Below, piece by piece: positions 2,600 through 49,821 of a stretch of 64,000 bases of DNA. Position 1 is the first letter of the stretch, and each line of letters begins with the position of its first letter. Under the pieces are notes generated by a model. The model searched no databases. It saw only the letters and a program-made list of their open reading frames with translations, and was not told the DNA's origin. The translations under genes and the position numbers were made by a program. This DNA comes from Nitrospirota bacterium (GTDB lineage Bacteria; Nitrospirota; JACRHJ01). The stretch is taken from assembly GCA_021784575.1 (NCBI GenBank), contig JAJYHX010000001.1, positions 335,280-399,279 on the forward strand. The letters run 5' to 3'.

Positions 2600-3088
2600 T
2601 TGAAGGTTGCGATAGGCTGCGATCACGGCGGACTGGAACTGAAAGAAGGCATTGTCGCGCTCCTTGGCTCTCAGGGCGCGGAAATAATCGATATGGGGAC
2701 CGGAGGAGACTGCTGCTCCGCGGACGGCAAACCGGCGGCCGCCGGGCGACCGGTCTCGGTTGACTATCCCGATTACGGCGCGAAGGTGGCCGGGGCCGTA
2801 TCCGCCGGAGAGGTCGACAAGGGCATTCTCGTCTGCGGCACGGGAATAGGCATGTCCATAGTCGCAAACAAGTTCCCCGGCGTCCGCGCCGCGCTCTGCC
2901 ACGACGCCTTCACGGCAAGGATGTCCCGTATGCACAACGACGCCAATATACTGGCCATCGGCGGCCGGGTCACGGGCCGGGAGGTTGCGCTCGACATGGT
3001 AAACATCTGGCTTTCCACCCCCTTCGAGGGCGGGAGGCACCAGAGGCGGCTGGACAAAATATCGGACATAGAAAAATCGGCCCGTTAG
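2600..3088 (+). CDS. rpiB: ribose-5-phosphate isomerase B
   Basis: A 162-residue RpiB, interconverting ribose 5-phosphate and ribulose 5-phosphate. Family motifs: [12 protein letters not shown] at the N-terminus, [16 protein letters not shown] (catalytic Cys region, about residues 78-86), RAALCHD and [12 protein letters not shown]. The start is taken as TTG 2600 because GGAGAGG lies 7 nt upstream and the product then begins like the family; the longer reading frame begins inside repeat R1. Odd: about 18 extra residues (35-52, ending KPAAAGRPV) sit between the first alpha/beta unit and SVDYPDY, where the family normally has a short loop. Confidence 0.93.
2702..2755 (+). repeat. in-frame GRP/KPA-type insertion in rpiB
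   Basis: Extra coding DNA relative to the usual RpiB length, containing AAACCGGCGGC and GGGCGACCGGT. Related CCGGT/ACCGGCGGC-rich insertions occur in mqnB, mqnD and the ArnT-like gene. Proposed as a dispersed in-gene repeat by comparison among these copies. Confidence 0.45.
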
Positions 3089-3192
3089 GTATAATTTAGG
3101 GAAGTAACGCCCCTTATCAAGATAATAAGATGGGAAGGCGAAGCCGGGGGAGTTATGAAAGGTTATTCGGAGGTTTATCAAGAGGTCATATG

Positions 3193-4470
3193 ATGCGTTC
3201 GCTCAGGGAGTCGGACCCGGAGGTCTGGCAGGCAATCGAAGACGAAAAGAGGCGCGAGGGGGAGAAGATTGTCCTCATCGCTTCGGAGAACTACGCCTCC
3301 CAGGCCGTTCTGGAGGCCCAGGGGTCGGTGCTTACGAATAAATACGCGGAAGGCTATCCCGGCAGACGCTACTACGGCGGGTGCGAGTTCGCCGACATCA
3401 TAGAAGACCTGGCTATACGGCGGGCGAGGGAGCTTTTCGGCGCGGAGCACGTGAACGTCCAGCCGCACTCCGGCTCCCAGGCCAACATGGCGGTATACTT
3501 CGCCGCACTCGAGCCGGGCGACACCATCCTCGGCATGAAGCTCACCCACGGCGGGCACCTCACCCACGGGGCCGCCGCCAGCTTCTCCGGCAGGCTGTTC
3601 AAGTCCGTGAGCTACGGAGTCCGGCGCGCGTCCGAAGCCGGCTTGCCGGCGGGGCACATAGACTATGACGAAGTCGAGGCCCTTGCAAAGGAGCACAGGC
3701 CGAAGATTATTGTCGTCGGGGCCTCGGCGTATCCGAGGATAATAGATTTCAAGCGTTTCAGGGAGATTGCCGACGCGGTCGGAGCGTATCTCATGGCCGA
3801 CATGGCGCATATTGCCGGGCTTGTAGCCGGGGGGGTGCATCCGTCTCCGGTCCCGTATGCGCATTTTGTTACCAGCACAACGCACAAGACCCTTCGCGGC
3901 CCCAGGGGCGGGCTTATAATGTGCAACGACGAAGAGCTCGGCAGGAAGATAGACCACGTCATATTTCCGGGCATACAGGGCGGGCCGCTCATGCACGTCA
4001 TAGCGGCGAAGGCCGTGGCCTTCAGGGAGGCCGCCGAGCCTGAGTTCCGGGCATACCAGTCGCAGGTCGTCAGGAACGCGCAGGCCCTCGCGGAAGAGCT
4101 TGCGGCCCGCGGTTTCGACCTTGTCTCCGGCGGGACGGACAACCACCTCATGCTCGTTGACCTCACGAACAAGGGCGTAACCGGCAGAGAGGCCGAGGCG
4201 GCGCTCGACCTTGCCGGGATAACCGTGAACAAGAACGGCATCCCCTTCGACCTGAAGCCCCCGACGGTAACATCGGGCATAAGGGTCGGCACGCCGATAG
4301 TTACTACGCGCGGCATGAAGGAGCCGGAGATGGCCGAAATCGCCGACATGATAGCCTCGGTAATACACGACATAAACGACGCCGGGAACCTTGAGAGAGT
4401 CCGCGAGCGCGCAAGGGCGCTCTGCTCCCAGTTCCCAGTCTACGAAGGCCACGGGGCCTCGGCGCTATGA
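3193..4470 (+). CDS. glyA: serine hydroxymethyltransferase
   Basis: A 425-residue PLP enzyme making glycine and methylene-tetrahydrofolate from serine. Motifs: LIASENYAS near the N-terminus, [13 protein letters not shown], the PLP-lysine motif [15 protein letters not shown] (about residue 225) and GIQGGPLMH. The start is at 3193 (or the adjacent ATG at 3190): AGAGG lies 7 nt upstream, and the 20 residues upstream do not resemble the family. The loop [19 protein letters not shown] is several residues longer than the usual YGVDxxTGLIDYDE. The stop overlaps the next start (ATGA), so it is co-translated with the dCMP deaminase. Confidence 0.97.
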
Positions 4471-4928: not shown

Positions 4929-4960
4929 GGCCGCGTTAGCCGCGCACGGTTTAAAAATCC

Positions 4961-4989: not shown

Positions 4990-5028
4990 CTTTAGGTTTT
5001 TTCTCTTACGGAAATGCAGGAGCGCCTT

Positions 5029-27873: not shown

Positions 27874-28659
27874 ATGATACTTGTAGTCTTTGCCACGGAG
27901 CAGGAGGCCGGGCCTTTTCTCGAAGGGGCGTCCTGGGAGCGGGAAGAAATCGGGAACAGGCCGATGTTCAGGCGAAGGGCCGATGCCCCCGCCGTCTCCC
28001 GGCGTTCCACGCCACCCTCCACCGCAGCCGGTCGGCCGGCCACGGGTTGGGAGGGCCGTGAGGAAGAGAAAACTATAGGCGTTCTTATTTGCGGCATGGG
28101 GCAGGTGAATGCCGCGCAGGCGCTGACGGCTTATCTGGAGCGCCGCGCGAAGCCGGATCTTATTATCATGGGCGGGTGCGCGGGCGCGTTCCGGGGCGGG
28201 TCCGCCGTGGCGGGGGATGTATGTTTCGCCACGGAGGAGATATATGCGGATACCGGAATAAATTCCCCGGAAGGCTTCCGGGGCCTTGAGAAAACCGGCA
28301 TCCCGCTTTCGGAAGCGGAAGGCGCGAAATACTATAACCGCTTTCCCGTCCACGACCTATCCGGCAGGGTTGCCGGAGAGGGATTCACTTTTAAAATTTT
28401 TTCCGGCCCTTTCGCCACCGTATCCGCCGTCAGCGGGACGGAAATGTCCGCCGCCGGGATTGAAAAGACCTGGCGTCCGCTCTGCGAGAACATGGAGGGC
28501 GCGGCGGCGGCGCACGTCTCGCTTCTGTATAAAGCGCCCTTCGCCGAGGTGCGCGGGATTAGCAACATGGCGGAAGACAGAGACCGCGCCCGGTGGGATA
28601 TTCCAAAGGCTTGCGCCAACTGCGCGGCTGTCATCAAGGAACTCATGGAGAAAATATGA
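27874..28659 (+). CDS. mqnB: futalosine hydrolase (nucleosidase)
   Basis: 261 residues; MTA/SAH-nucleosidase-fold enzyme that cleaves futalosine in the alternative menaquinone pathway. LVVFATEQEA at the N-terminus, GMGQVNAAQALT, GGCAGAF, and CENMEGAAAAHVSLLY with FAEVRGISNMAEDRD (substrate Glu and catalytic Asp regions). About 30 residues (36-65, ending AAGRPATG) are inserted before the second strand relative to a compact nucleosidase. Overlaps mqnD by ATGA. Confidence 0.9.
   Translation: MILVVFATEQEAGPFLEGASWEREEIGNRPMFRRRADAPAVSRRSTPPSTAAGRPATGWEGREEEKTIGVLICGMGQVNAAQALTAYLERRAKPDLIIMGGCAGAFRGGSAVAGDVCFATEEIYADTGINSPEGFRGLEKTGIPLSEAEGAKYYNRFPVHDLSGRVAGEGFTFKIFSGPFATVSAVSGTEMSAAGIEKTWRPLCENMEGAAAAHVSLLYKAPFAEVRGISNMAEDRDRARWDIPKACANCAAVIKELMEKI
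27979..28068 (+). repeat. in-frame Pro/Arg/Ala-rich insertion in mqnB
   Basis: Extra low-complexity codons containing GCAGCCGGTCGGCCGGCC. Resembles the insertions in rpiB, mqnD and the ArnT-like gene. Confidence 0.4.
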
Positions 28660-29537
28660 ACACGCTGACGCTCGGATACTCCCCCTGCCCCAACGACACC
28701 TTCATATTCTACGCCCTGACCCACGGCAGGATACACGCGGACTTTACCGTGCGCGAAATACTCGAGGACGTGGAGACCCTGAACATGCGCGCAATGGCAG
28801 GTCAACCGGCGTCGGGCAGTCAACCTGCTTCAGCCGGTCAACCGGCGGCGGGAGAGATGCTCGACTTGACCAAAATATCTTTTCATGCGGCGGCATATCT
28901 CCTGGACAATTACTGCCTGCTGCGCTCCGGCGGCGCCCTCGGAAGGGGCTGCGGGCCTCTTGTAGTATCCAGGGATTATTCCGGCATAGAGGATATTCGC
29001 GGCAGGAGAATCGCCATCCCTGGCCGCTATACCACGGCGCAGCTCCTGCTGATGCTCTACGGGCGCGGGTTCGAGGATGTCCGCGTTATGCAGTTCGACA
29101 GGATAATGCCGGCTGTCGCAAGCGGAGAGGTGGACGCGGGTCTTATAATCCACGAAGGCCGCTTCACGTACCAGAACTACGGACTCAAAAAACTCCTCGA
29201 CCTTGGCGAGTGGTGGGAGAGGGAAACCGGCTCACCCATCCCGCTTGGCTGCATCCTGGCGAAAAGGTCGCTTGGGAAGAAGACGATCCTGGCCGTCGAG
29301 GACGCGATCCGCCGGAGCATAGCTTACGCCGGCGGCAACAGGGCGGAATGCACGGGCTACATCAAGGCGCACGCCCAGGAGATGGATGACTCCGTTATAG
29401 ACGGCCACATAAGGCTTTACGTAAATTCCTTCTCGGACGACTTCGGCGAAGAAGGCGTCCGGGCGATAGAAAAACTCTTCTCTCTGGCCTCCGAAGCCGG
29501 CATTATATCCGCGAACCGCGAACCGCTCTTTCTTTAA
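28656..29537 (+). CDS. mqnD: 1,4-dihydroxy-6-naphthoate synthase
   Basis: 293 residues; periplasmic-binding-fold enzyme turning cyclic dehypoxanthine futalosine into 1,4-dihydroxy-6-naphthoate. LGYSPCPNDTFIFYAL at the N-terminus, LTKISFHAAAYLLDNYCLL, and GLIIHEGRFTYQNYGL. Start ATG 28656 (GGAG 6 nt upstream) overlaps mqnB. Residues 49-66 (GQPASGSQPASAGQPAAG) interrupt the conserved segment between the substrate loop and DLTKIS and are absent from normal family members. mqnA, C and E are not in the window. Confidence 0.95.
   Translation: MNTLTLGYSPCPNDTFIFYALTHGRIHADFTVREILEDVETLNMRAMAGQPASGSQPASAGQPAAGEMLDLTKISFHAAAYLLDNYCLLRSGGALGRGCGPLVVSRDYSGIEDIRGRRIAIPGRYTTAQLLLMLYGRGFEDVRVMQFDRIMPAVASGEVDAGLIIHEGRFTYQNYGLKKLLDLGEWWERETGSPIPLGCILAKRSLGKKTILAVEDAIRRSIAYAGGNRAECTGYIKAHAQEMDDSVIDGHIRLYVNSFSDDFGEEGVRAIEKLFSLASEAGIISANREPLFL
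28800..28853 (+). repeat. in-frame GQPA tandem insertion in mqnD
   Basis: Three imperfect units of GGTCAACCGGC-type DNA encoding GQPAS-GSQPAS-AGQPAA. The block CCGGCGTCGGGCAG is closely matched in the ArnT-like gene (48731-48819, minus strand). Confidence 0.6.
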
Positions 29538-31517: not shown

Positions 31518-31776
31518 CGGGAGGCCGGGAGCGGAGCGCGCCTGCGACAAGTGCGGCTCCGGCGTGCTGCTCAGAAGCCATATCGCTGAAATATGTCCCA
31601 TATGCGGGGAATATTTTTTCCCGGCATGCGCGGACAATGCGGCGGCGAAACCTGATACGGCTTATGTCGCAGCCGAGTGGAAGGAACACCGACTCGGCCT
31701 GATGATGAAAAAGGACGGCTGGCGCTGGATAGAGGTCTTGTCGCCTCCGCGCTGGTTCACAGAAGAGGTTGCATAG
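31504..31776 (+). CDS. small zinc-ribbon protein
   Basis: 90 residues. Two Cys pairs, CDKCGSGVLLRSHIAEICPICG (about 13-34), form a zinc ribbon. The rest has no known domain. ATG 31504 overlaps the regulator gene. Unrecognised phage protein. Confidence 0.65.
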   Translation: MTEFNGRPGAERACDKCGSGVLLRSHIAEICPICGEYFFPACADNAAAKPDTAYVAAEWKEHRLGLMMKKDGWRWIEVLSPPRWFTEEVA

Positions 31777-31784
31777 GTATATCA

Positions 31785-32120
31785 ATGACAAAACCGAAAA
31801 ACGACAGCCTGTTTGTAAACAACCGGCACTTGGCGGGTTTCAGGAAATTCCAGAACGCGGCCATTCGCGCGCTGTCACTGCTTTCCGGGGGCCTCAAGAA
31901 AAAGAAGGCCGACCGGGCGCTGAAGGTCTCCGACATGAAATCGCTTGTCTCGACTTACAAGGAAGCGGTCATGGGGGAACGGAACGTCCTGGGGCTCGTC
32001 GGAGAGCCGCAGGGGGAATGGCCCGAAGAGGTTGTGGTGCGGTGGGAAGACCCGGAAGGCGAGCCGGACGAGGCCGGTCAGCCGGAAGACGGTATGCCGG
32101 CGGCGGAGACCGAGGATTGA
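31785..32120 (+). CDS. putative small terminase-like protein
   Basis: 111 residues from ATG 31785 (AGG 8 nt upstream). Helical, basic N-terminal two-thirds (FRKFQNAAIRALSLLSGGLKKKKADRAL) and an acidic Glu/Asp/Pro tail that includes EAGQPEDGMPAAE. Position immediately before the large terminase, overlapping it, is that of a terminase small subunit; sequence alone does not prove it. Confidence 0.5.
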   Translation: MTKPKNDSLFVNNRHLAGFRKFQNAAIRALSLLSGGLKKKKADRALKVSDMKSLVSTYKEAVMGERNVLGLVGEPQGEWPEEVVVRWEDPEGEPDEAGQPEDGMPAAETED

Positions 32121-33412: not shown

Positions 33413-33432
33413 AAAAAAGGAGGTCTATTATT

Positions 33433-34302
33433 TTGGAGCCTTCAGAGAAGCTTTCATTCACATTGGAGAAGGGTCTTGAGCTTAACGGAAACGACGTGCC
33501 GGAAGAAGTACAGCTCCTGCCGGCAGGTGAAGTGCGTCCGAAGGGCAAGATGCAGTTCCTGATGGACGAGGAAGGTATGCAGTTGATGCTCGCCGCCTTC
33601 AATAAATCCGACACCGACCTTGTCATCGACTACGAGCACCAGAGCCTCTCGGGTTCCGAGGCGCCCGCCGCAGGCTGGATAAAGGGACTTATCGACAAAG
33701 GCGCAGAGGGACTCTGGGCGAAGGTGCAGTGGACTGACCGCGCGAAGGAATATCTTCGGAAGCGGGAATACCGCTATATCTCGCCCGTCGTGCTCGTCCG
33801 CAAGAAAGACGGGCGCGCCGTTGAGCTGCTTGGGGCGGCGCTTACTAACCTGCCGGCCATCGACGGCATGGCCCCGGTCGTAAACTCTACGCAGAAGGAT
33901 TACAGGAGCCTGTACATGGAGGCGTTGAAGTTCCTTGGGCTCCCGGAAGACGCGGAGGCCGAGGCCGTGAGACTAAGGGCCGAGGCGCTTGTCAGGCCAT
34001 CCGGTTTCGTGCCGGAGGCGGAACATCTTGCGCTCAGGGAGACACTCAGGAAGTATGAGACGGAAGAGCTTGTGAGGCAGGCGCTTTCAAAGGGGAGGAT
34101 AACCCCGGCGCTTCTTCCGTGGGCCCGTTCGTACGCATTCGCAGACCCGGAAGGATTCCTGGAGTTCTGCGGGAAGGCCTCTCCGGCGGCGCTTGAGAGC
34201 AGACTCCCGGCGGATGCGCATCCCGCGCCCGCGCAGGCCAGGATAAACGGCCTGCTCGGGCTGGACGACAAAACCTTCTTCCGATACGCAAGCCATAATT
34301 AA
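33433..34302 (+). CDS. Mu gpI-like capsid protease/scaffold protein
   Basis: 289 residues from TTG 33433 (AGGAGG at 9 nt). The N-terminal half (LLPAGEVRPKGK, DLVIDYEHQSLSG, AAGWIKGL, YRYISPVVL, ALTNLPAIDGM) matches Mu-like phage I proteins, whose N-part is the prohead protease and C-part the scaffold; the helical, Glu-rich C-terminal half fits scaffolding. Stop directly abuts the portal start. Confidence 0.88.
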   Translation: MEPSEKLSFTLEKGLELNGNDVPEEVQLLPAGEVRPKGKMQFLMDEEGMQLMLAAFNKSDTDLVIDYEHQSLSGSEAPAAGWIKGLIDKGAEGLWAKVQWTDRAKEYLRKREYRYISPVVLVRKKDGRAVELLGAALTNLPAIDGMAPVVNSTQKDYRSLYMEALKFLGLPEDAEAEAVRLRAEALVRPSGFVPEAEHLALRETLRKYETEELVRQALSKGRITPALLPWARSYAFADPEGFLEFCGKASPAALESRLPADAHPAPAQARINGLLGLDDKTFFRYASHN

Positions 34303-35385
34303 ATGAACAAAAAAGACTACACAAAGGAAATCGCTGCGCCGACGCTTCGGGACAGGTGGTCGGATTATCCATCGTCCGGCCTCACTCCAAAGCGGCTTTC
34401 CCGGATACTTCGGGAGGCCGACGCAGGGTATATACATTTGCAGGCGGAACTTTTCTCCGAGATGGAAGAGAAGGATGCGCATCTTTACTCCTGCCTCCAG
34501 ACGCGGAAGCTCTCCGTTTCGGGATGTCCCTGGGAGATTGTCCCGGCAGCCGGGGCGGGGCCTGCCGAGACAGAAGCGGCTTCGTTTGTTTCCGAGTGCA
34601 TTACGGGAACTGACAATTTCGACGAGTCGCTCACCGACCTGATGGACGCGGTAGGAAAGGGATTTTCCGTATCGGAGATCATCTGGGAACTCGACCACGA
34701 GCGGCTTGTCCCGCGGCGCCTGAAGAAAAGACCGCAGAAAATGTTTACTTTTCTCTCGGAGGACGGCGTCCCGACCGAACGCCCGCGCCTTGTTACGGAC
34801 GACGATCCGGTTTACGGTATCGCTCTTCCGGCGTCGAAGTTCGTCGTTCACATATACCGCGCCGGGGCCGATTATCCCGAGCGGGGGGGTCTTTTAAGGA
34901 CGCTTTCCTGGATATACCTTTTTAAAAACTATGCGATCAAGGACTGGGTCTCGTTCTGCGAGGTCTTCGGGATGCCGCTCAGGCTCGGCGTATACTCGCC
35001 CTCGGCGTCAAAAGACGACAAGGACGCGCTCCTTGAAGCCGTGACCAGCCTTGGCTCAGACGCGGCAGGGATTATATCCGAAAGCACCAGGATACAGTTT
35101 ATCGAATCCGCGAAACGCGGCGACGGCGGGCCGTACAAAGACCTTGTGGACACGATGAACAAGGAAATATCCAAGGCCGTCCTGGGCCAGACCCTGACGA
35201 CGGAAGCAGGCCACAGCGGAAGCCTTGCCGCCGGGCTTGTCCATGACGGCGTGCGAAAGGACATAGTCCGCGCGGATGCCCGCTCGCTTGCGAGAACCAT
35301 AAACCGCGATTTATTGCGCCCGATGACGGCGCTGAACTTCGGCCCGGACGTAAAACCGCCGGAATTCAGATTCACAACCAACTGA
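34303..35385 (+). CDS. DUF935 / Mu gp29-like portal protein
   Basis: 360 residues, somewhat shorter than Mu gp29. Family features: LQTRKLSVSGCPWEIV, DAVGKGFSVSEIIWEL (about 110-125), DWVSFCEVFGMPLRLGVY (about 212-229) and LGQTLTTEAGHSGSLAAGLVH. Forms the dodecameric DNA gate of the capsid. The gpF-like gene that usually follows is missing. Confidence 0.92.
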   Translation: MNKKDYTKEIAAPTLRDRWSDYPSSGLTPKRLSRILREADAGYIHLQAELFSEMEEKDAHLYSCLQTRKLSVSGCPWEIVPAAGAGPAETEAASFVSECITGTDNFDESLTDLMDAVGKGFSVSEIIWELDHERLVPRRLKKRPQKMFTFLSEDGVPTERPRLVTDDDPVYGIALPASKFVVHIYRAGADYPERGGLLRTLSWIYLFKNYAIKDWVSFCEVFGMPLRLGVYSPSASKDDKDALLEAVTSLGSDAAGIISESTRIQFIESAKRGDGGPYKDLVDTMNKEISKAVLGQTLTTEAGHSGSLAAGLVHDGVRKDIVRADARSLARTINRDLLRPMTALNFGPDVKPPEFRFTTN

Positions 35386-35395
35386 GGAGGTTTCG

Positions 35396-35806
35396 ATGTC
35401 GGCACTGACAAAGGACAGAGACACTGTTAGGAAGGAAGGGGTGTATGCTTCTTACCCCGTGGAAGGCGGGGCGGTAATTTATGCGGGGAGCATGGTCTGC
35501 ATAGGCGCGGATGGCTATGCCGTCCCGGCTTCGGATACTGCGGGGCTAAAGTTCATGGGCATATCACGCCAGTACGTGGACAACTCCGCCGGCGCAGGCG
35601 GAAGCGTCGAAGTGGAAGTCTGGAGGCGCGGCTGTTTTAACCTCGCCGCGTCAGGCATTGCGCTTTCCAATGCGGGAGACCCGGTATACGCGCTTGACAA
35701 CCAGACGGTGGGCCTCACTGCCGCGTCCACCAATCACGTCGCCTGCGGGAAGATATCGGAATACGACACGGCGTCCACAGTATACGTGGACATCAGCAGG
35801 ATATAA
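35396..35806 (+). CDS. capsid decoration (DUF2190-like) protein
   Basis: 136 residues, rich in beta strands and Ala/Gly/Ser. VEGGAVIYAGSMVCI and AGDPVYALDNQTV recall the DUF2190 or capsid-cement family of Mu-like and related phages. Lies between portal and major capsid genes, AGGAGG 6 nt before the ATG. Confidence 0.75.
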   Translation: MSALTKDRDTVRKEGVYASYPVEGGAVIYAGSMVCIGADGYAVPASDTAGLKFMGISRQYVDNSAGAGGSVEVEVWRRGCFNLAASGIALSNAGDPVYALDNQTVGLTAASTNHVACGKISEYDTASTVYVDISRI

Positions 35807-35815
35807 GGAGGGAAG

Positions 35816-36709
35816 ATGATAATCAACCAGGCAAATTTATCGGCGCTTTATACAGGCTTTTCGGCAATATTCAAAGACGTGTTCGACAACGCGACTGTGC
35901 TCTACAGGCGAGTCGCGACCGAAGTCCCGTCCACTTCCCGCCAGGAGCAGTATAACTGGCTGGGCCGCGTGCCCCGTATGCGCGAATGGCTGGGGGAGCG
36001 CGTAATACAGAACCTCTCCGCCTATTCGTACACCATAAAGAACCTCGACTGGGAAACCACGGTCGCCATTGACAGAAACGACGTGGAAGACGACGCCGTC
36101 GGAATATATATGCCAATGGTCAAGGCGCTTGCCGACGCTGCCGCCACGCATCCCGACGAACTGGTCTTCGATCTTATGACCGGCGGCTTTGCCAACCCCT
36201 GCTACGACGGCATGTCGTTTTTCAACGCTGCGCATCCGACCGGCGCCTCTACCCAGTCCAACAGGGGCACTGCGGTGCTCACGCCAACGAGCTATGCCGC
36301 GGCCCGCGCGCAGATGATGTCGCTTACGGACGAGCACGGGAAACCGCTTAACGTGGTTCCCGATCTCCTCGTAGTCCCGCCGCAGCTTGAGAGCGCCGCT
36401 CTGGGAATATTGCACGCCGACGTCTACGAGGACGGCACCACTAACGTATTCGTGGATTCCGCAGACCTTGTAGTGGCTCCGTATCTCTCCGCCAGCCCGA
36501 CGGCATGGTATCTGTTGGACACGAAGAAGGCCGTGAAGCCTTTTATCTTCCAGAGGAGGAAGCCGCCCGTTTTCGTGGCCAAGGATACGCCGGATGACGA
36601 GGGGGCGTTTATGAAGAGGGAATACGTCTTCGGTGTGGATTCGCGGGACAACGCAGGCTACGGTCTCTGGCAGCTCGGGTACGCGTCAGACGGAACGACG
36701 CTGAATTAA
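35816..36709 (+). CDS. Mu gpT-like major capsid protein
   Basis: 297 residues, the family's usual size. IINQANLSALYTGFSAIFKDVF at the N-terminus, WLGRVPRMREWLGERV (about 43-58), MSFFNAAHP and DLLVVPPQLESAAL (about 183-196) are Mu-like head subunit motifs. Stop is 2 nt before the gp36-like gene. Confidence 0.95.
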   Translation: MIINQANLSALYTGFSAIFKDVFDNATVLYRRVATEVPSTSRQEQYNWLGRVPRMREWLGERVIQNLSAYSYTIKNLDWETTVAIDRNDVEDDAVGIYMPMVKALADAAATHPDELVFDLMTGGFANPCYDGMSFFNAAHPTGASTQSNRGTAVLTPTSYAAARAQMMSLTDEHGKPLNVVPDLLVVPPQLESAALGILHADVYEDGTTNVFVDSADLVVAPYLSASPTAWYLLDTKKAVKPFIFQRRKPPVFVAKDTPDDEGAFMKREYVFGVDSRDNAGYGLWQLGYASDGTTLN

Positions 36710-36711
36710 CC

Positions 36712-37104
36712 ATGTATATATCAATATCCGATTTATATGTCCCTGAGGACGTATTGATACGTCTCACGGATGACGAGTCAAGCGGTTCAGTAAATACCGC
36801 GCGCGTGGACGACGCAATTTCTTCCGCGCAGTCGGTGGTGGACGCCTCGCTCTCGATGCAGTACGATGTGCCGCTTGAAAACCCGCCGCAGCTCGTAATA
36901 AAGCTGACGACGGACATGGCGGTATATAACCTTTACCTCCGCCAGGCAATTGTCCCGGCGGAGGTAAAGGACTCCTATGTCAGGGCGCTTGAGACATTGC
37001 AGAACATCGCAGACGGCGCCCTTTTGCTGTCCCTGGCCATTCCCGGAATATCGGTTTCGGAAAGTCGGAGAGAATTCAGCCGGGAAAGCATGGAAGACTT
37101 CTGA
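36712..37104 (+). CDS. DUF1320 / Mu gp36-like head-tail connector protein
   Basis: 130 residues. YISISDLYVPEDVLIRLTD, ARVDDAISSAQSVVDASL and KLTTDMAVYNLYLR match DUF1320 (Mu gp36), a head-completion or adaptor protein. Confidence 0.88.
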   Translation: MYISISDLYVPEDVLIRLTDDESSGSVNTARVDDAISSAQSVVDASLSMQYDVPLENPPQLVIKLTTDMAVYNLYLRQAIVPAEVKDSYVRALETLQNIADGALLLSLAIPGISVSESRREFSRESMEDF

Positions 37105-37123
37105 TGGAGGCGGAAGAATATAA

Positions 37124-37555
37124 ATGGCGATTTATAAACGAAAAGACCTTCTGAACGCCGTGGCCTCGGCCCTGTCGCCCATGCTTATATCCAACGGAGG
37201 CTCTGCGCGTGCGGTTTATGTAAGTGATATTACAAAGCCGGAGGATATTCTGGCGAAATCGCCCGCATTGCCATCCGTCGCGGTCGTTTTCCTGTCATCG
37301 ACATGCAGGCCGGGACCATACCAGGCTTACGCGGAACGGATCAATTTCGGTATTGTCGCTATGGCGCGGTATGATATTTCGCCGACGCCGCTCGATTTGC
37401 TGGAGGACGTGCGGCCTCTGCTGATTGGGAAGGACCTGGGCGTAGGGACTTATCCTCCGAGGTTGGAGAGTGAATCGCCCGTGTCGGTGCGTGACGATTT
37501 CGCATACGCTTCCGCGAACTATTACCTGGTCCGGTATGTAACGCTGGAAAGCTGA
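37124..37555 (+). CDS. Mu gp37 (DUF1834)-like protein
   Basis: 143 residues. Second adaptor position after gp36. LPSVAVVFLSSTCRPGP then AYASANYYLVRYVTLES at the C-terminus is compatible with gp37-like tail-terminator proteins, but similarity is weak. RBS GGAGGCGG upstream. Confidence 0.6.
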   Translation: MAIYKRKDLLNAVASALSPMLISNGGSARAVYVSDITKPEDILAKSPALPSVAVVFLSSTCRPGPYQAYAERINFGIVAMARYDISPTPLDLLEDVRPLLIGKDLGVGTYPPRLESESPVSVRDDFAYASANYYLVRYVTLES

Positions 37556-37569
37556 ACGAGGAGGCTTGA

Positions 37570-37980
37570 ATGCCAGGCGCTTCTTTTACCGCGGTTGGCC
37601 TTACACCGCTTAATTTCTCCGTGAACCCGTGTTATCCGGGCAAGGTCACGCTGGATACCGGTTTCATAAATTTAAAGAGCGAGGGAGGCGAGGATATTTT
37701 TCTTCGCAAGGCCGATAGTTCTGCGCTCATAGCGCTGAATTTCTCGGGTCTTACGGCATCGGATTTCGACGGCGGGTTTGACTATGCCGCCGGCGCGCAG
37801 GCTGCCGGCACCCAGAGCCTCGTCAACTGGTTCATAAGCCAGGCCGGCAAAACCTTCACTTATGATGACCCGTTCGGCAACTCGCATTCGGTCGTATTCG
37901 GGCAGGAAAAATTAGAGTTTTCTTTTACGGAGGATGGCGCGTATAACGGCGCCGTGCTTCTCAAGGAGATAATAGGCTGA
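37570..37980 (+). CDS. unidentified tail protein (possible tube or connector)
   Basis: 136 residues, beta-rich: LNFSVNPCYPGKVTLDTGFINLKS, then GAQAAGTQSLVNWFISQAG and LEFSFTEDGAYNGAVLL. Not recognised. Its place before the large tail protein suggests a tail-tube-like or stopper protein. Overlaps the next gene by TGATG. Confidence 0.55.
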   Translation: MPGASFTAVGLTPLNFSVNPCYPGKVTLDTGFINLKSEGGEDIFLRKADSSALIALNFSGLTASDFDGGFDYAAGAQAAGTQSLVNWFISQAGKTFTYDDPFGNSHSVVFGQEKLEFSFTEDGAYNGAVLLKEIIG

Positions 37981-40556
37981 TGCAGGCGATAAACCAGAAT
38001 TTTGCAGCGGCTGCGGACGGGCATCAGCCGGCATGTATACTCGCCGTATTTCATTTCGCCAGCGGCGACGTATTCATATCGGATAGGACGATAACACCGC
38101 CTGACGGCCCTGCCTTTTCCGGACTTGTAACTGATTGGGCGGCGCCTGCCGTTTCTTACAAGGGGCCGTTCTCAATCGCTATTCCGGAGATTGAGATTGA
38201 AATAGCCAATTCTGGAAATCCGCCGTTCTCGACGTTAATAGAATCAAACGATGCGGAAAACACCGAAATAGAACTGTTCGCATGGTTCGAGGGGACAAAC
38301 TACGCCGATAAAGAGGCGATAGGGAAATTTAAAATTTCCGCAAACAATTCGGGTAGCGGAATCGGGTCGGCGGCTGTTTGCTATGGTGATAATTCCGTCA
38401 GACTGCAACTGGCAGGGGCCTTTAAAGGAAGGGAACGACAGGTCGGGACTGTCATAAGCCGGGACATATGGCCAAACGCGGAACCTCACGCAATCGGCAA
38501 GGCGGAAAACATTATTTATGGTTCCGTACAAGACGTCCCGTGTCCGGCAGTCTCCGCCGGGGCGGTTACTACGCTTGTCTCTGATATTACGCTGTCCCAG
38601 ACAGACGACATCGAGCTCTCCATTGCGCCGGGCGAGATGGCCTTTCCGCCTTCCGGTGTGGTTCAGGTCGGCGACGAGAGGATAAGCTATACCGGATTAT
38701 CCGGGAAGGTATTGACCGGCGTATCGCGCGGCGCCGAGGGGACACAGGCATTCTCGCACAATAAGGGCGCGAAGGTCTTTGAGGTGCTGATCTCCTACGA
38801 CTATCTTGTGGCGGGGCATCCGGTTCAGTCTATAGGAAACGTCTATGTGGACGGCATACGGGTAACCTCCGGGGTAAGCATACTGACCGACGATGGGAAC
38901 GGAAGGGCTAAGCTGTCGTTCAGCGACAGATTCATCCTGGAGAAATCGGTGGATTTAAGCGTCAGCCAGGGCAGCCATTCCCATCAGAACACCACGTGGA
39001 GCGGGCAGGGAAACCAGTCATATTCGACGCGCTGGACAGCATCGGTAAACCCGAACTGGGCGGTAAACGAACATGTGGGCAACGCATTCCTGGATTCCGC
39101 GGGTAATTATTTCTATATCATAGACAACGGCGCAAACTATCTTGACGTGCGGAGCATCAACGGCTATGCGCTGGCCCCCGGCGCTTATACCGGCACGATA
39201 ATACAGACTCAAACCGAGACCATCTTTCAGGATGCGGTAGAGGGTACGTTTGACGCCCCGGTTGCCGGCGACGCCTATGCGTTGTGCGACAAAAGCCTGA
39301 ACGATTTTGGCGCAATAATAGTCCCGGGCGGCTATATCGACACGGTAAGGTCGTTTCTGGCGACAGACAAGGGGTACATTGTCGGCGCCAAGATATGCGC
39401 CGCCATCGGACAGATGACATATAACGGTATCGGCATGAGCACGGTTCAGGGGGGAATATTTGGCGGCGCATATGTCCAGGGCGGCGGGTCTTCAATGCAG
39501 GTATGCAAGACCGCCGGGACTATTATCCGCAGCACGGTCGGCGAGGTTTCATGGGGCGACTTTTCGAATATGGCGCTGCGCGCCACGTTTTCTTCCGGAC
39601 TGGCCGCAGCCGCATTTTTTGAACAATGGGTCGAGGTAACTTACGTCCCGTATCATACCTCGACTCCTGCAACAGGTGTTGCGCTATCCGGCAGATCCGC
39701 GGCTGATTATGTTATTGGCCGGACTGTCAGTTGCGACGTAAACGGCATATTTGACGACACCGCCGGAAGCGTCACGGGGACGCCCGGCGCGCTTATAGAA
39801 AATCCTGCGGATGTCATCAGTCATTTCCTCATGAATTATTTGGATATGCCGATATCTGAAATTGACGGTTCGTTTGCCGTGGCCAGGTCTTCGCTGGAGG
39901 GCGCAATTACGGGAGGATATTCGTTTGCCGGGGTAATAAACACAGCTGTGGACGGTTTTAAGTTCATCGAGAAACTACTCCGGCAGTCTCGCCTTGCAAT
40001 GATGCACAACGGATATGTTGCGAAACTGAAATTCCTGTCGAACAGCCCACAGTCCGCCGACATGACAGTAGAGACGGAAATGGTGCCGATGGGGGGCATA
40101 AGAATCTCTCGCACAGGGAAGGGCGAGATAATAAATTCTCTCGACCTTCATTACCAGAAGGACTTCATCAATGGCGGAAGATCCGCGGCATATCTGGCCG
40201 TCTGTTCATCGTCCGCACTTTATCCTTATGGCGGGGATCCGATCTCTGTGTCTAAATACGGCGAATTAACTCCAGCGCACCCATTTCTTTTCGATTTTGT
40301 CGTCTCAGACTCGCAGGCGTCAGACATGCGTGATTTTTTTATCGCGCGTTATAAAGACGTCAAGAGGCGGATAGAAGTTTTTACTCTTCTTGACTGTTTT
40401 GGTATCGAGATGGGAGACATAATTTCATTTGACTGGCCGACGACGTATTTCTCTCTGTCGGGCGCGCAGTTCTTCGTCGAGGAGGTCTCATTTATTCCCG
40501 GAAGTTTTAAGAAAAAAAGGCCGGATCAGCTCCGGCTTACTGTGCGGGAGGCATAG
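37980..40556 (+). CDS. large phage tail / baseplate hub-like protein
   Basis: 858 residues. N-terminal domain (about 1-170) resembles DUF2163/hub-type tail proteins (VFHFASGDVFISDR, KGPFSIAIPEIEIEIAN). A PSGVVQVGDERISYTGLSG...VSRGAEGTQAFSHNKGA unit (about 222-262) is common in phage tail proteins. A long beta-rich middle (about 315-560) may bind ligand, and the C-terminal region (VINTAVDGFKFIEKLLRQSRLAMMHNG, about 655 onwards) looks like a hub core. No tape measure precedes it. Somewhat AT-richer than the head genes. Confidence 0.7.
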   Translation: MQAINQNFAAAADGHQPACILAVFHFASGDVFISDRTITPPDGPAFSGLVTDWAAPAVSYKGPFSIAIPEIEIEIANSGNPPFSTLIESNDAENTEIELFAWFEGTNYADKEAIGKFKISANNSGSGIGSAAVCYGDNSVRLQLAGAFKGRERQVGTVISRDIWPNAEPHAIGKAENIIYGSVQDVPCPAVSAGAVTTLVSDITLSQTDDIELSIAPGEMAFPPSGVVQVGDERISYTGLSGKVLTGVSRGAEGTQAFSHNKGAKVFEVLISYDYLVAGHPVQSIGNVYVDGIRVTSGVSILTDDGNGRAKLSFSDRFILEKSVDLSVSQGSHSHQNTTWSGQGNQSYSTRWTASVNPNWAVNEHVGNAFLDSAGNYFYIIDNGANYLDVRSINGYALAPGAYTGTIIQTQTETIFQDAVEGTFDAPVAGDAYALCDKSLNDFGAIIVPGGYIDTVRSFLATDKGYIVGAKICAAIGQMTYNGIGMSTVQGGIFGGAYVQGGGSSMQVCKTAGTIIRSTVGEVSWGDFSNMALRATFSSGLAAAAFFEQWVEVTYVPYHTSTPATGVALSGRSAADYVIGRTVSCDVNGIFDDTAGSVTGTPGALIENPADVISHFLMNYLDMPISEIDGSFAVARSSLEGAITGGYSFAGVINTAVDGFKFIEKLLRQSRLAMMHNGYVAKLKFLSNSPQSADMTVETEMVPMGGIRISRTGKGEIINSLDLHYQKDFINGGRSAAYLAVCSSSALYPYGGDPISVSKYGELTPAHPFLFDFVVSDSQASDMRDFFIARYKDVKRRIEVFTLLDCFGIEMGDIISFDWPTTYFSLSGAQFFVEEVSFIPGSFKKKRPDQLRLTVREA

Positions 40557-40558
40557 GA

Positions 40559-40795
40559 ATGGATTGGCTTACCCGGATAATGGCAGCGGCGGCTGGATTT
40601 CTTTTGGCGTTCTTTTATTCCCGCATGATGAAGGCGGCGGACCAGGCGCCTGAGAAATATATGAGCAAGCACGACTGCGAGACCACACGCATTGAGTGCA
40701 GGCGCAATAACGAGCTTTGGCTGGACGAGGTCTTGCAGAGGCTTGAACGCATGGAATCAAAAATGGACAGGATGGCCGAGAGGATATTTGAATAA
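40559..40795 (+). CDS. membrane-anchored coiled-coil protein
   Basis: 78 residues: one N-terminal membrane helix (about 5-25), then a heptad-patterned helix (LWLDEVLQRLERMESKMDRM, 53-72). Ends 1 nt before the DUF5675 gene. Typical of small lysis-region phage proteins (holin or antiholin-like); not assigned further. Confidence 0.65.
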   Translation: MDWLTRIMAAAAGFLLAFFYSRMMKAADQAPEKYMSKHDCETTRIECRRNNELWLDEVLQRLERMESKMDRMAERIFE

Positions 40796-40796
40796 C

Positions 40797-41222
40797 ATGG
40801 AACTGGGACTTAAGAGGACCTGGCCCGATTCAAACTGCACCATCGGAGAGCTTTTTATCGGCGGCGGCGCGTCGCGGGAATGCTATATCCTTGAACCGCC
40901 GGTGCGAGAAATCGAAGGTATGCCTTTAGCGAAGTGGAAGGTGCCGGGCCATACCGCTGTGCCGCGCGGCAGATACAGGGTAATACGAAGATTTTCCCCA
41001 AAGCACGGGAAAGTCGTGCCGTGGTTGACGGGAATACCCGGGTTTGAAGATGTGGAAATCCACTCCGGCAATACGGTCATCGACACGGAAGGCTGCCTGC
41101 TTCCGGGCATGGAAAGAGGGAATGAGTCTGTTTTTAAAAGCGTTGCCGCATTTAATTCTCTGGATTTAAAAATTGCCGGCGCGATTGAAAGCGGCGATGA
41201 GGTCTTTATAACAATATCGTAA
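40797..41222 (+). CDS. DUF5675 family phage protein
   Basis: 141 residues from ATG 40797. LKRTWPDSNCTIGELFI, CYILEPPVRE, AVPRGRYRVIRRFSPKHG, VEIHSGNTVIDTEGCLLPG match DUF5675, found in lysis or tail regions of many phages. The conserved His/Asn (HSGN) and Gly-Cys recall L,D-transpeptidase-like folds, but activity is unproven. Confidence 0.8.
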   Translation: MELGLKRTWPDSNCTIGELFIGGGASRECYILEPPVREIEGMPLAKWKVPGHTAVPRGRYRVIRRFSPKHGKVVPWLTGIPGFEDVEIHSGNTVIDTEGCLLPGMERGNESVFKSVAAFNSLDLKIAGAIESGDEVFITIS

Positions 41223-41237
41223 CCAAAGGAGGAAACA

Positions 41238-41408
41238 ATGGATAACCCGAAAACGACCATTACCGGAGTAATCACCGGAATTATAAGTCTGCTGGGATTC
41301 TTTCATGTCGGTATTCCGAGCTGGATAACGCCTCTGGCGACCGCCATAGGCGTAACGCTGATTGGTATTTTCGCAAAAGACGACGGCAACAGCCAGACTG
41401 CCAAATAG
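41238..41408 (+). CDS. small two-span holin-like protein
   Basis: 56 residues. AGGAGG 5-6 nt before ATG 41238. Two hydrophobic stretches (about 10-25 and 28-46) and a polar tail KDDGNSQTAK. Size, topology and position in the lysis block fit a phage holin. Confidence 0.65.
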   Translation: MDNPKTTITGVITGIISLLGFFHVGIPSWITPLATAIGVTLIGIFAKDDGNSQTAK

Positions 41409-41424
41409 GGAGAATTTCAGGGAC

Positions 41425-41655
41425 ATGACGATCAGTCTCATTTCCGGTGTTATCGGCCTTTTAAGCGCGCTGGCCGCCGTGTTCCTCAAATTCTGGCCAG
41501 AATTGGAAAGAAAGCGCGATTTAAAAATAAGTCTGGAGACTTCAGATGAATTCGGGCGGGAACTTTTGGAAGGGAATGATATTGGCGCTTCTGTGCGCAT
41601 GTCTGATGAGATTGACCGCGTGCGCCGAGAGGAAGGTGGCGATACTTCAATCTGA
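41425..41655 (+). CDS. Rz-like inner-membrane spanin candidate
   Basis: 76 residues from ATG 41425: N-terminal membrane helix (3-22) and a charged helical periplasmic part. Overlapped out of frame by the lipoprotein gene at 41546, the classic Rz/Rz1 arrangement. Short for an i-spanin, so confidence is moderate. Confidence 0.55.
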   Translation: MTISLISGVIGLLSALAAVFLKFWPELERKRDLKISLETSDEFGRELLEGNDIGASVRMSDEIDRVRREEGGDTSI

Positions 41656-41779
41656 CCATCTTATTGAAACCATACCCGACAATCATTGTGTCGATTGCCA
41701 CGGGAGTTGGTACGACGGGCGCAAAGTAATTTCAGGCGGATACCTCCTGGACATCTTCAAGGAGTTGCAGAACAAATGA
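41546..41779 (+). CDS. Rz1-like outer-membrane lipoprotein candidate
   Basis: 77 residues in a different frame from the Rz-like gene it overlaps by 110 nt. Signal peptide with lipobox (ALLCACLMRLTAC; Cys at about 26), then AILQSDHLIETIPDN and SGGYLLDIFKELQ, a layout seen in small phage lipoproteins with o-spanin roles. Start at 41546 keeps a Lys in the n-region; ATG 41576 is possible. Overlaps the next gene by ATGA. Confidence 0.6.
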   Translation: MNSGGNFWKGMILALLCACLMRLTACAERKVAILQSDHLIETIPDNHCVDCHGSWYDGRKVISGGYLLDIFKELQNK

Positions 41780-42972
41780 AAAAATATCTACTTATACGTT
41801 TAAAACCCAGGCTTGCCAAACGGGCGCTTGTGGTGGTAATTATTTTTTTGTGCGGATGCGCGATGTGCGCATTTGCGGCGCCCGTCGGTATGACAAAGCA
41901 GACCGCCGACATCCTCTACGCGCACAGGCTCGTGTTCCAGAACGCCACGTCGAGCCTGCATCACGAGATTACCGGCTCTGTCGCCGGCGTCACATCCTTT
42001 AATGGTCGCACGGGGACAGTAACTCCCGCGCTTTTGGACTACAGTTCGTTCTTCCCGACAAAGCCGGTGTTCCAGAACGCCACGTCAACCCTGCATCACG
42101 AGATGGTTAATTCCGTCGCGGGAGTAGCTTCTTTCAACGGGCGCACCGGCGCGGTTCTTCCGATGGCGAACGACTACACCCCCGCGCAGGTGGGCGCGGA
42201 GAGCCAGGGCGCGTTCTCGGCATATTCATCGAACATCGCGCACAACGGCACTCCGGTAAAGGGCTACACGAACATTTCCGGCCTCGCCGTGAATGCGCTT
42301 CCGCACAATGCGTTCAATTCTTATTCCGGGAACCAGGCCGTGAACATTTCCGGGCTACAGGCGGACGACACAACCTACGCGAAGGCGGCCCTTCTGCGTT
42401 CCGGCGGCACGATGACCGGGCCGATTAAGGGCGGCGTGCAGGCGACGTTCGGGAATACTTCTACGGCGAATATCTGCGCGACCGGCATGGTCATGGCATC
42501 GGGTATGGGGAAGTTCACGAACATATCCACGAGCGGCTATTACTACGGCAACGGCTCGAAGCTCACGGGCGTGACGGCGGCGGCATCGCTGGCTTACGTC
42601 TCGTCTCACCTGACATCCAATATAGCGATGACGACCGCCAACACGTATTATAACGGGCCCGCAGTAAGTCTTGGCGCAGGGACATGGTTGGTGGTTGGGA
42701 GTGTCCTGTGTTATAACGGCAGCGGCGGTTACATATATACCGGCAAACTGTGGGATGGCACGAATGTATATTCATCCACCGAAGCGCAAGACGCGGGGTC
42801 GTCGGTAGAATATTTACGATTAAATCTGTCTGCGATTATAACCGTGGCATCCTCCGCCACAATATACATTGCCGCAGCCTCCAAAGGCGGGAGCAGTTAC
42901 ATGTATGCGGCGTGTCCCGACAACGGCGCCGGCAACACGGCGAGCTACATCAACGCCATTAAAATACAGTGA
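41776..42972 (+). CDS. tail-fibre-like protein with signal peptide
   Basis: 398 residues from ATG 41776. A basic n-region and hydrophobic helix ending AFA-A (about 14-37) form a Sec signal peptide. Two repeats follow, each FQNATS(S/T)LHHE...SVAGV(T/A)SFNGRTG (about 45-130); SFNGRTG is a classical phage fibre motif. Then fibre-like segments with QVGAESQGAFS and a C-terminal beta domain (about 285-398) like those in phage receptor-binding proteins. Phage fibres normally lack signal peptides, which makes this unusual. Confidence 0.75.
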   Translation: MKKYLLIRLKPRLAKRALVVVIIFLCGCAMCAFAAPVGMTKQTADILYAHRLVFQNATSSLHHEITGSVAGVTSFNGRTGTVTPALLDYSSFFPTKPVFQNATSTLHHEMVNSVAGVASFNGRTGAVLPMANDYTPAQVGAESQGAFSAYSSNIAHNGTPVKGYTNISGLAVNALPHNAFNSYSGNQAVNISGLQADDTTYAKAALLRSGGTMTGPIKGGVQATFGNTSTANICATGMVMASGMGKFTNISTSGYYYGNGSKLTGVTAAASLAYVSSHLTSNIAMTTANTYYNGPAVSLGAGTWLVVGSVLCYNGSGGYIYTGKLWDGTNVYSSTEAQDAGSSVEYLRLNLSAIITVASSATIYIAAASKGGSSYMYAACPDNGAGNTASYINAIKIQ

Positions 42973-42983
42973 GGAGCGAATAG

Positions 42984-43895
42984 ATGAAGAAGTATAACTG
43001 CTCGATACTCAGCCTGACAACCGTTATTGGACTGCTCATAACACTTGGAATCTCCGTGGCCGCCCTGGCAGACTTCACCGTCAACAAGCCGATGCGCGAG
43101 GCGTTCCAGATGTTCAATTCCGACGGTTCGCCCCGGACGAACTGCGACATGACAAAGTTCAGCGCGGAGACCTGGCTGGACGACTCGCGCGTCCCTCTTT
43201 CGTGGACATTCCGGAACCAGTCCACGGGCGACTACGACGCCACGGCGACACCTTCTACCGCCGGGGACTACGAGGCGATATTCTTCTACGACAACACGAC
43301 CATCGGGACGTTCACCGATGACGTGCGCCTGTGGGACATCGACACGATGTATGCGAACGCCGGGCCGCGCATGGCGAATATCAGCACGGCGATAACGGCG
43401 ACGCCGGGGAATGTGTGGGCGAACGGGACGAGGACGCTGACGGGCGCCGAATGGTCGTATGCGAACAACACGAGCATCAACAATTACCTGACGACGGAGC
43501 ACGGGACGGGCTTGTGGAACGCCGCCGGGAATGTTACCGTTCTGCCCTTCCAGGGCGCGGCGACATACGAGACGGTCGCCCAGGGAAATGACGTTCACAT
43601 AACGCATGGGGATTCGGTATCAATCCCGTATTCCGTCGGCAAGGACATCTCGGGCTATACGGTCTGGTTCGGGGCGAAGGCGAATACGACAGACACGACA
43701 TATGCAATCGTGCCGAGAGATATAACCGCATACGTTACGAGTGCCTCAACCGGCTCCGGATTGATTAACCTCTCGACGATGGATACCGCGCTTCCTACCC
43801 GAAAGTATGCGGCGCAGGTGGAGATAAAGAACGGGAGCACGGTTAATACGGTGCTGAAGTTCAACCTGTATATTGATGTGAGTGTGCTGAATTAG
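42984..43895 (+). CDS. second phage fibre/baseplate-like protein with signal peptide
   Basis: 303 residues. N-terminal signal peptide (ILSLTTVIGLLITLGISVAALA, about 8-29). The body has NVWANGTRTLTG (about 147-158), common in phage proteins, and a C-terminal immunoglobulin-like beta domain (VHITHGDSVSIPYSV ... LKFNLYIDVSVLN), reminiscent of baseplate/BppU-like N-domains. Follows the previous gene by 11 nt with GAGGAGCG as RBS. Confidence 0.7.
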   Translation: MKKYNCSILSLTTVIGLLITLGISVAALADFTVNKPMREAFQMFNSDGSPRTNCDMTKFSAETWLDDSRVPLSWTFRNQSTGDYDATATPSTAGDYEAIFFYDNTTIGTFTDDVRLWDIDTMYANAGPRMANISTAITATPGNVWANGTRTLTGAEWSYANNTSINNYLTTEHGTGLWNAAGNVTVLPFQGAATYETVAQGNDVHITHGDSVSIPYSVGKDISGYTVWFGAKANTTDTTYAIVPRDITAYVTSASTGSGLINLSTMDTALPTRKYAAQVEIKNGSTVNTVLKFNLYIDVSVLN

Positions 43896-47275: not shown

Positions 47276-47317
47276 GAAATTTATAAGGGAATAATGTCCG
47301 AAATCGGAGGCGGGCAG

Positions 47318-48106: not shown

Positions 48107-48111
48107 CTGGT

Positions 48112-49821
48112 TTAGTCTCTTTTCGAGGTTTCGGTGTTGCAAATAATAGCCCCGGAAGCATGATATATAACACGTGATGGCGCCGAAAGCAAGCTTGAAT
48201 CGGGACTGCCGGCGAAAAAGACCCTGGCGCCGGATTTCCACAACTCCCGGAACTCATTATTATTTATAATAAAACTGGCGCCGTCGTTAAAAACCGACGG
48301 GACCATCGGGTTAACGCCGTCCCTCAGTATAAGCACCTTCCTGCGGGTGTAATAGCAGTAGACGGCGCTGTATTCGTACTCCTCATGCGCCTGAACGACA
48401 AGCGGGTCGCCGGGCTTGAGAAACCTCGCCGCCGCTTTTGCGAGATGCGCATCGGACAGCTCCGGCTGGAGCGCGTCGAGTGCGGGTTTTGAGCCAGCCC
48501 CCAGCACAATGCCTATAAGAAGCACCGCCGTGAACGCCTTCCCGATGCCGCCCTTCCTTATGAATATGAATGCCGCCGCCCCGCCTGCTGCAATGGCAAG
48601 AAAACAGGCTTCCGCCGTATAAAGCAATATTCTGCCGTGATGAGCCGGGACATCGGCTGAAAATTTATTGAATAAAAAAGGCGCGGCAGCCGCACCCGCG
48701 GCCCCCATCAATAGCAATAAAATGCTCCCTGCCGCCGCCGGTTTGGTCGTCAGGCCGGCCTCAGGGGGCAGACTGGCCCTGCCCGATGCCGGTCTACCGG
48801 TCGATGCCGGTCTGACGGCTTCCGCGAGCGCCGCCAGATAACCTCCGACAAGTATTGCGAGCGGCGGCAGGAGCGGTATCTGGTAGTATTCCATCTTCTG
48901 GGAAGAAAGGAGCAGAAATACCATGCCCCCAAGCCCCCAGTAAAGCGCCATGCGCAGGTTCGCATCACGCTTCCGGACGGCCATCCTGGCCCCCTGCAGG
49001 AGGAATACCGCCCAGGGCATCATCCAGGCCAGGGTAATCAGGGAAAAAAGCGGCGAACTTATGCTGTCCCAATCCGGCGGGATACGCTTGTTAAAAAACC
49101 TCAGCACCTGCTCGTTTATTATGAAGTCGTACAGGAAGCCCGGGTTCCTTAGCTCCATAAGGATGTGCCAGGGCGCTGTTATCGCCATAAACACGGCAAT
49201 CGCGGGTATGCTTGCCAGTTTTTTCAACATGTCGCGTCTGCCTTCGGCGGCGATGAAAACCACAAAGGCTATGCCGGGGAATATGAGGCCCAGGAAGCCC
49301 TTGGTCATTACGGCCAAGCCAAGCGAGGCCCAAAGCCCGAACGTCCTGTTTTTCCCGTCGGATATCTTAAGGAAATAATATACCGCGCATGTCGTTAAAA
49401 ACCCGAGCGGCACGTCCGGAAGGAGCTCCGCGGTATGGAAAACGAAGCCGTAGGACGTCGCAAGGACGCCTGCGGCCATCAATCCGGAGGTCTTTGAGGA
49501 GCGGGCGGCGATTTTATACGCGAATACTACGGTGCCCGCGGCGAAAAGGGCCTGCGGAATCCTGGGGCCGAGATGTTGCCCGAAAAGCCATATCGAGAGG
49601 GCGTTTGTCCAGAAGAAAAGCGGCGGCTTGAAGATAAAAGGGGCGTAGTTAAGCGTGGGGTAAAGGAAATCCTTCGACTCCAGCATCTCCCGCGGAACCT
49701 CGGCGTACATCGCCTCGGCATTCCATAGCGGATGCAGGCTGAATAAGAGGTAACATATTGATAAGACAATAAAAATAAAGGCGGTCACAAAAAGGCCGCC
49801 CTGGTTCTTCGTCTCAGGCAT
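48112..49821 (-). CDS. ArnT-like (GT39/PMT) membrane glycosyltransferase
   Basis: 569 residues with about eleven membrane spans. NAEAMYAEVPREML (periplasmic acidic loop, about 34-47) and FIFKPPLFFWTNAL are ArnT/PMT signatures, and the C-terminal periplasmic domain is present. Transfers sugar from a polyprenyl-phosphate donor to lipid A or another envelope acceptor. An in-frame Arg/Gly-Pro-Ala block (about residues 335-363, RPASTGRPASG...KPAAAG) interrupts a loop between two spans. Confidence 0.9.
   Translation of the reverse strand: MPETKNQGGLFVTAFIFIVLSICYLLFSLHPLWNAEAMYAEVPREMLESKDFLYPTLNYAPFIFKPPLFFWTNALSIWLFGQHLGPRIPQALFAAGTVVFAYKIAARSSKTSGLMAAGVLATSYGFVFHTAELLPDVPLGFLTTCAVYYFLKISDGKNRTFGLWASLGLAVMTKGFLGLIFPGIAFVVFIAAEGRRDMLKKLASIPAIAVFMAITAPWHILMELRNPGFLYDFIINEQVLRFFNKRIPPDWDSISSPLFSLITLAWMMPWAVFLLQGARMAVRKRDANLRMALYWGLGGMVFLLLSSQKMEYYQIPLLPPLAILVGGYLAALAEAVRPASTGRPASGRASLPPEAGLTTKPAAAGSILLLLMGAAGAAAAPFLFNKFSADVPAHHGRILLYTAEACFLAIAAGGAAAFIFIRKGGIGKAFTAVLLIGIVLGAGSKPALDALQPELSDAHLAKAAARFLKPGDPLVVQAHEEYEYSAVYCYYTRRKVLILRDGVNPMVPSVFNDGASFIINNNEFRELWKSGARVFFAGSPDSSLLSAPSRVIYHASGAIICNTETSKRD
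48731..48819 (-). repeat. in-frame RPA/GRPA insertion in the ArnT-like gene
   Basis: Tandem ACCGGCATCG-type units on the coding strand, then ACCAAACCGGCGGCGGC. Shares CCGGCATCGGGCAG (one difference) with the mqnD insertion. Confidence 0.6.

Follow-up and report, generated by a model that had tools for sequence, protein, structure and literature searches.

A palindromic repeat of 18–20 bp dispersed through the genes of one Nitrospirota genus, probably as a selfish non-autonomous element

Palindromic elements that invade genes in frame are known above all from Rickettsia and Wolbachia, and the Rickettsia palindromic elements measure 100–150 bp. REPs are located mainly outside genes and are linked to RAYT, and the SDR5-type repeats of cyanobacteria (reportedly Elhai et al. 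2008) are said to be about as tiny as the repeat described below and to have no known transposase. Rickettsia palindromic elements occur as dispersed palindromes both in frame within conserved genes and in intergenic regions, are polymorphic between species, and several of them can be found at one site (PMC3767692). A minority of REPs is located within genes (PMC3733652), and SDR5 inserts precisely inside HIP1 sites (PMC4390886). The GC clusters of yeast mitochondria are mobile palindromes, short and rich in GC, which merge and shuffle by an unsettled mechanism, with an AG target duplication in the case of GC42 (PMC4478555).

Here we describe a dispersed repeat with the consensus GCCGGTNGACCGGCYTCGG, which is probably a non-autonomous, very small selfish element that spreads as DNA through one Nitrospirota genus. 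It was followed up from the window, i.e. the whole stretch of 64,000 nucleotides that was analyzed (G000:C6:335280-399279), in the genome of the window (G000; 2.1 Mb, 14 contigs) and in four congeners (G001 to G004), all of which are draft assemblies, three of the five being just 75–88% complete. From G000, 864 kb of sequence was sampled, from G001 1.07 Mb and from G002–G004 smaller parts, and genes were called with a home-made codon-usage script. Pairs of congeners shared 86–90% nucleotide identity in three genes, and a tree calculated from rpiB, glyA and mqnD after removal of the inserts had the topology ((G001,G004),(G000,(G002,G003))).

The unit is 18–20 bp long and consists of a 14-bp palindrome, formed by its first 14 bases with the two central ones free and containing two RCCGGY half-sites, and a 5-bp tail that sets the orientation. 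An alignment of 47 instances revealed a conserved core of ~19 columns, GCCGGTNGACCGGC(T/C)TCGG, in which columns 5–8 are variable (G, T/C, A/C/T, G) and outside of which the flanks are not conserved. When single-stranded, the unit folds into a hairpin with a 5-bp stem and a loop of 4 bases. The palindrome CCGGTNNACCGG was ~10 times more common than palindromes of the same composition, with 21 exact matches in 464 kb of G000 and 34 in 344 kb of G001 (means for 30 such palindromes, 2.2 and 1.8, respectively). Covariation between the arms slightly exceeded that of shuffled alignments for pair 6–9 alone, the remaining pairs being too invariant or ascertainment-biased to carry a signal. GTAG is confined to variants with AG in the middle and lies inside the palindrome. 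One in-gene copy in G001 (L133:18041-18068) is extended to a perfect 28-bp palindrome, GCCCGAAGCCGGTCGACCGGCTTCGGGC, which may represent a head-to-head version of the unit.

A 19-base pattern with one mismatch allowed matched 55 times in G000 and 92, 86, 41 and 25 times in the four congeners, and its reversed control had no match in any of these five genomes. The same pattern was absent from a genome of the same family and had 0–3 matches in each of 391 other Nitrospirota genomes. Genome-wide in the window's genome, GACCGGCNTCGG had 48 matches versus 6 for the reversed pattern. A 20-column profile (PWM), trained partly on sequence that it scored, yielded 124 matches in the 864 kb of G000 versus 9 in the reversed sequence (71 versus 1 with a stricter cut) and 143 versus 17 in the 1.07 Mb of G001 (100 versus 0). 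Extrapolation from the profile suggests ~250 strong copies per genome, and the density of copies is ~1 per 8 kb. Taken by itself, the window showed no significant excess of the single motif (10 matches, 6.4 expected); the element is established by the genome-wide and comparative tests only. Within Nitrospirota, it is confined to one genus, where intergenic copies also occur.

About 85% of the matches fell into called genes, which make up 88% of the DNA; thus, coding DNA is hardly avoided. Relative to the host gene, 113 copies were sense and 118 antisense, and all six frames were occupied (sense0, 66 copies, read as AGRPAS; sense1, 23; sense2, 24, RPVDRLQ; anti0, 67, SEAGRPA; anti1, 36, RSRSTG; anti2, 15, KPVDR). 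Since one DNA sequence encodes unrelated peptides, it is the DNA and not the peptide that spreads. The Pro-Ala insertions from which the earlier note had started represent one of six readings of the repeat. The variant with AG in the middle was found in none of the 23 sense1 copies as opposed to 26 of 42 intergenic ones; this was not counted as selection against TAG, because the pattern arises partly by construction, as an open reading frame cannot hold TAG. At seven loci rich in intergenic copies, a search for structural RNAs with insertions gave ordinary tRNAs only, none of which contained a copy. Spread by phages was considered and set aside: one exact match was found in each of three IMG/VR contigs, and by our own estimate this does not exceed chance for an 18-base pattern in so large a collection.

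Other repeats were observed alongside. A separate, apparently intergenic dispersed repeat contains TAAGAGGGGGA, which frequently takes the form of the inverted repeat CCCCCTCTTAAGATAAGAGGGGG; this repeat is present at positions 1415, 13633 and 13647 of the window and at many sampled loci (48 matches in the 864 kb from G000 and 21 in the 1.07 Mb from G001). At 2490–2580 and 6958 of the window lie intergenic stretches with inverted repeats like GTAGGGGCGCGATTTATCGCGCCC, the former being missing at the orthologous site of G001. At the start of contig G000:C5 (L065:176-1564), a tandem array carries the 15-mers GTGGCAAACAACACG and GGCAACCAGGCGAGC seven to nine times with a spacing of ~186–207 bp, mostly multiples of three, and is possibly a gene for a repetitive protein.

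The earlier note had pointed out, from the window alone, related inserts in rpiB, mqnB, mqnD and an ArnT-like gene. All four contain copies of the one dispersed repeat and vary between congeners (Table 1), and the candidate in glyA, rated weaker at the time, is a real insert. Neither of the two outcomes that would have spoken against the earlier note was observed: unrelated homologues of mqnD and rpiB lack the loops, and the genome contains many further copies.

Table 1 Inserts of the repeat and one weak candidate in the window
Feature	Position in window	Strand	Description
rpiB insert	2717..2756	+	two element-like units (ADGKPAA + AGRPVS) in a loop before SVDYPDY; PWM matches at 2717 and 2741
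glyA insert	3631..3650	-	one unit, antisense reading SEAGLPA; net +18 bp
mqnB insert	27979..28068	+	~27 codons; one degenerate unit, PWM match 28021-28040 on the minus strand
mqnD insert	28797..28852	+	three in-frame 18-bp units (AGQPAS GSQPAS AGQPAA)
weak candidate	32067..32101	-	two degenerate units close to the C-terminal end of a small ORF of phage type (31785-32120); PWM 15.6 and 16.4
ArnT-like glycosyltransferase insert	48731..48819	-	tandem units (VRPASTGRPASG...EAGLTTKPAAAG)

Between ETLNxRA and LDxTK, MqnD had exactly 4 residues in all 78 homologues from outside the genus (Nitrospirota, Desulfuromonadales, Geobacter, Thermus, Methanoperedens and others), whereas the three sequences from within the genus in that alignment had 22 or 29. 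The mqnD insert was present in all five species of the genus, with lengths that differed mostly by 18-bp steps. MqnD itself was detected in 17 of 41 Nitrospirota relatives, and the futalosine menaquinone route is therefore patchy in the phylum. The rpiB insert was missing from all 11 aligned homologues of other families and from G003 as the sole species of the genus; the other four species carry four different versions of one to three units. In glyA (window 3190-4470), G000 and G002 have ASEAGLPA in place of DN, and the insert is missing in G001, G003 and G004. The 27 extra residues of MqnB were found solely in the window's species among four compared (G001, G002 and G003 lacking them), and outside its one degenerate unit this insert contains no recognisable element sequence. 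The ArnT-like inserts have differing lengths in G000, G002 and G003 and a short, degenerate version in G001. The candidate at 32064-32108 contains two weak units, a part of this stretch is 12 bp shorter in G003, and it is still a weak case. The surrounding region of the window (~31000–43000) contains phage-type genes, among them a terminase-like ORF (32150-33412), and aligns partly with G001.

The host proteins are ordinary enzymes, which Pfam recognised despite the inserts: RpiB, SHMT, MqnD, ferrochelatase and a PUA-containing amino-acid kinase, the copy in the last being located between the kinase and PUA domains. Judged by sequence, tRNA-guanine transglycosylase (Tgt) and an RsmB-like methyltransferase carry copies as well. 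In AlphaFold models, the MqnD and RpiB inserts form loops between regular elements, with pLDDT <50 for residues 50–66 of MqnD and 36–54 of RpiB, both disordered, in otherwise confident models. This fits with inserts that are tolerated in loops, where the few added amino acids would apparently be harmless.

At clean-flanked coding sites at which the partner species lacked the motif and the length had changed, the difference was divisible by three in 38 comparisons and not in 3, whereby the species pairs partly repeat the same event and are partly non-independent. The frame preservation proposed earlier is thus borne out within genes, although the spread extends to intergenic DNA. Twenty clean single-gap inserts measured 12–54 bp, all multiples of three, and 18 bp was the length of seven of them; exact 18-bp insertions were found, for example, in an LpxK-like gene (L282:18562) and at L074:3351, L270:12273 and L277:11113. 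Among the clean events, the inserts varied in length and in where they lay relative to the motif, and no fixed target duplication was found at the 20 insertions. A scheme of 14+4 bp, apparent at one locus, failed at others. Junction repeats averaged 1.9 bp compared to 0.99 bp for shuffled inserts, a weak signal from 20 events. Tandem units in genes were spaced mainly by 15, 18, 21, 24 or further multiples of three, and most intergenic arrays had a spacing of 19 or 20 bp (e.g., four units in L299:7946), the sample of intergenic insertions being small. The glyA insert is at odds with the species tree, as G002 has it and its sister G003 does not; together with the absence of the rpiB copy from G003, this means that loss, recombination or repeated insertion at one place must occur. 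Hence, dispersal, insertion, tandem growth and frame-compatible retention of the repeat are demonstrated, and loss is implied by the tree.

As for the mechanism, copies may arise when the hairpin-forming palindrome serves as the template for a short insertion into an unrelated site while DNA is replicated or repaired. Single-copy inserts of variable length (12–30 bp) and the lack of a linked transposase would agree with this. We infer such template switching because the insert ends vary, junction microhomology slightly exceeds chance, a fixed target duplication was not found, and G000 has no Y1/RAYT gene. Arrays would then lengthen by slippage, and purifying selection would retain frame-compatible copies only, mainly in flexible surface loops and linkers, with no host function required. 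Lengths in multiples of three are the expected residue of such selection and are thus uninformative on the mechanism if taken alone. An unlikely variant is a native unit of exactly 18 bp, or six codons, which would be neutral to the frame because of its size and would multiply mainly within coding DNA without the help of a dedicated transposase. That coding DNA is undepleted, even though a random length would disrupt the frame in two of three cases, hints at such a unit, whereas the 19-bp intergenic step argues against it. If correct, the six-codon unit would be mobile DNA whose niche is the interior of genes.

Other origins of the repeat were weighed against template switching. It is conceivable, with a rather low probability, that an enzyme of the genus which has escaped recognition, a site-specific recombinase or a retro-copying enzyme, moves the micro-repeat, since the copy numbers and polymorphism require some mover and the modal 18-bp insert could reflect an enzyme. 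The variable length and position of the inserts relative to the motif and the lack of a fixed target duplication speak against this explanation, and a search that covered Y1_Tnp only yielded no candidate gene. We regard as improbable a REP-type element whose RAYT/Y1 tyrosine transposase acts in trans and either has since been lost or is located elsewhere. REPs are similar in being small (20–40 bp), palindromic and in some cases inside genes (PMC3733652), and copies with AG in the middle contain GTAG, but here GTAG is no unpaired end tag, many copies lack it, and the element is not depleted in genes. Furthermore, Y1_Tnp (PF01797) was not found in G000, G002 and G004, although G004 is rich in copies. 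G001 and G003 each had a single match, an IS200-like ORF of 143 aa (L157, G001:C13) and a RAYT-like ORF of 162 aa (L158, G003:C120), respectively; the presence of these ORFs would suit a REP, but both are unlinked to the repeat and not flanked by copies.

A selected protein-binding, methylation or DNA-uptake site that arises by point mutation and is not mobile would account for the strong palindrome with its two half-sites, the density of about one copy per 8 kb and the equal use of both strands. It is nevertheless very improbable, because the clean empty sites differ by insertions, mostly of 18 bp, and not by substitutions, because tandem arrays exist, and because the motif is restricted to one genus of the phylum. 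Finally, convergent expansion of Pro/Ala-rich loops in a G+C-rich genome, with no shared DNA origin, deserves hardly any credence. The window has a GC content of 57% and the Ala-Gly-Pro frames are the commonest, but one DNA sequence yields unrelated peptides in six frames and is found between genes as well, and neither the excess of the palindrome over others of its composition nor the empty reversed control of the 19-mer would be expected from loop expansion.

A selfish repeat spreading as DNA would add a second, independent in-frame palindromic case from a Nitrospirota genus, one that is almost undepleted in coding DNA and shows how small mobile units can get. The five species allow gain, growth and loss to be read site by site, and the inserts in housekeeping enzymes (SHMT, RpiB, Tgt, ferrochelatase, MqnD) amount to dozens of natural insertion experiments, which can be of use in studies of loop tolerance and of new peptide segments.

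Among the known systems, the yeast mitochondrial GC clusters resemble the element in being GC-rich short palindromic mobile units, but they belong to an organelle and GC42 has an AG target duplication, unlike the inserts described here. REPs and REPINs are likewise short, palindromic and dispersed, with some copies in genes. The element is not a REP, as the tag, the RAYT link and the extragenic habit all fail: the unpaired GTAG or CGTC end tag of the GTAG/CGTC REPs was not encountered, G000 is devoid of a Y1 nuclease, and copies lie in genes in proportion to coding DNA. Nearest in size are the cyanobacterial SDR elements. SDR5-type repeats target HIP1 (GCGATCGC), whereas the 20 empty sites here contain no GCGATCGC and share no fixed target. 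The Rickettsia palindromic elements and their Wolbachia counterparts agree with the element in being palindromic, dispersed in many copies and inserted in frame in conserved genes, and the sharing of one site by different Rickettsia elements (PMC3767692) resembles the turnover seen here. The likeness suggested in the earlier note holds in these respects but not for the defining length, the unit being 5–8 times shorter, and the element further differs in phylum, probably in sequence, and in its tandem arrays with an 18–19 bp step. Our best reading is that the element works like the Rickettsia palindromic elements and represents an independent, probably unrelated case.
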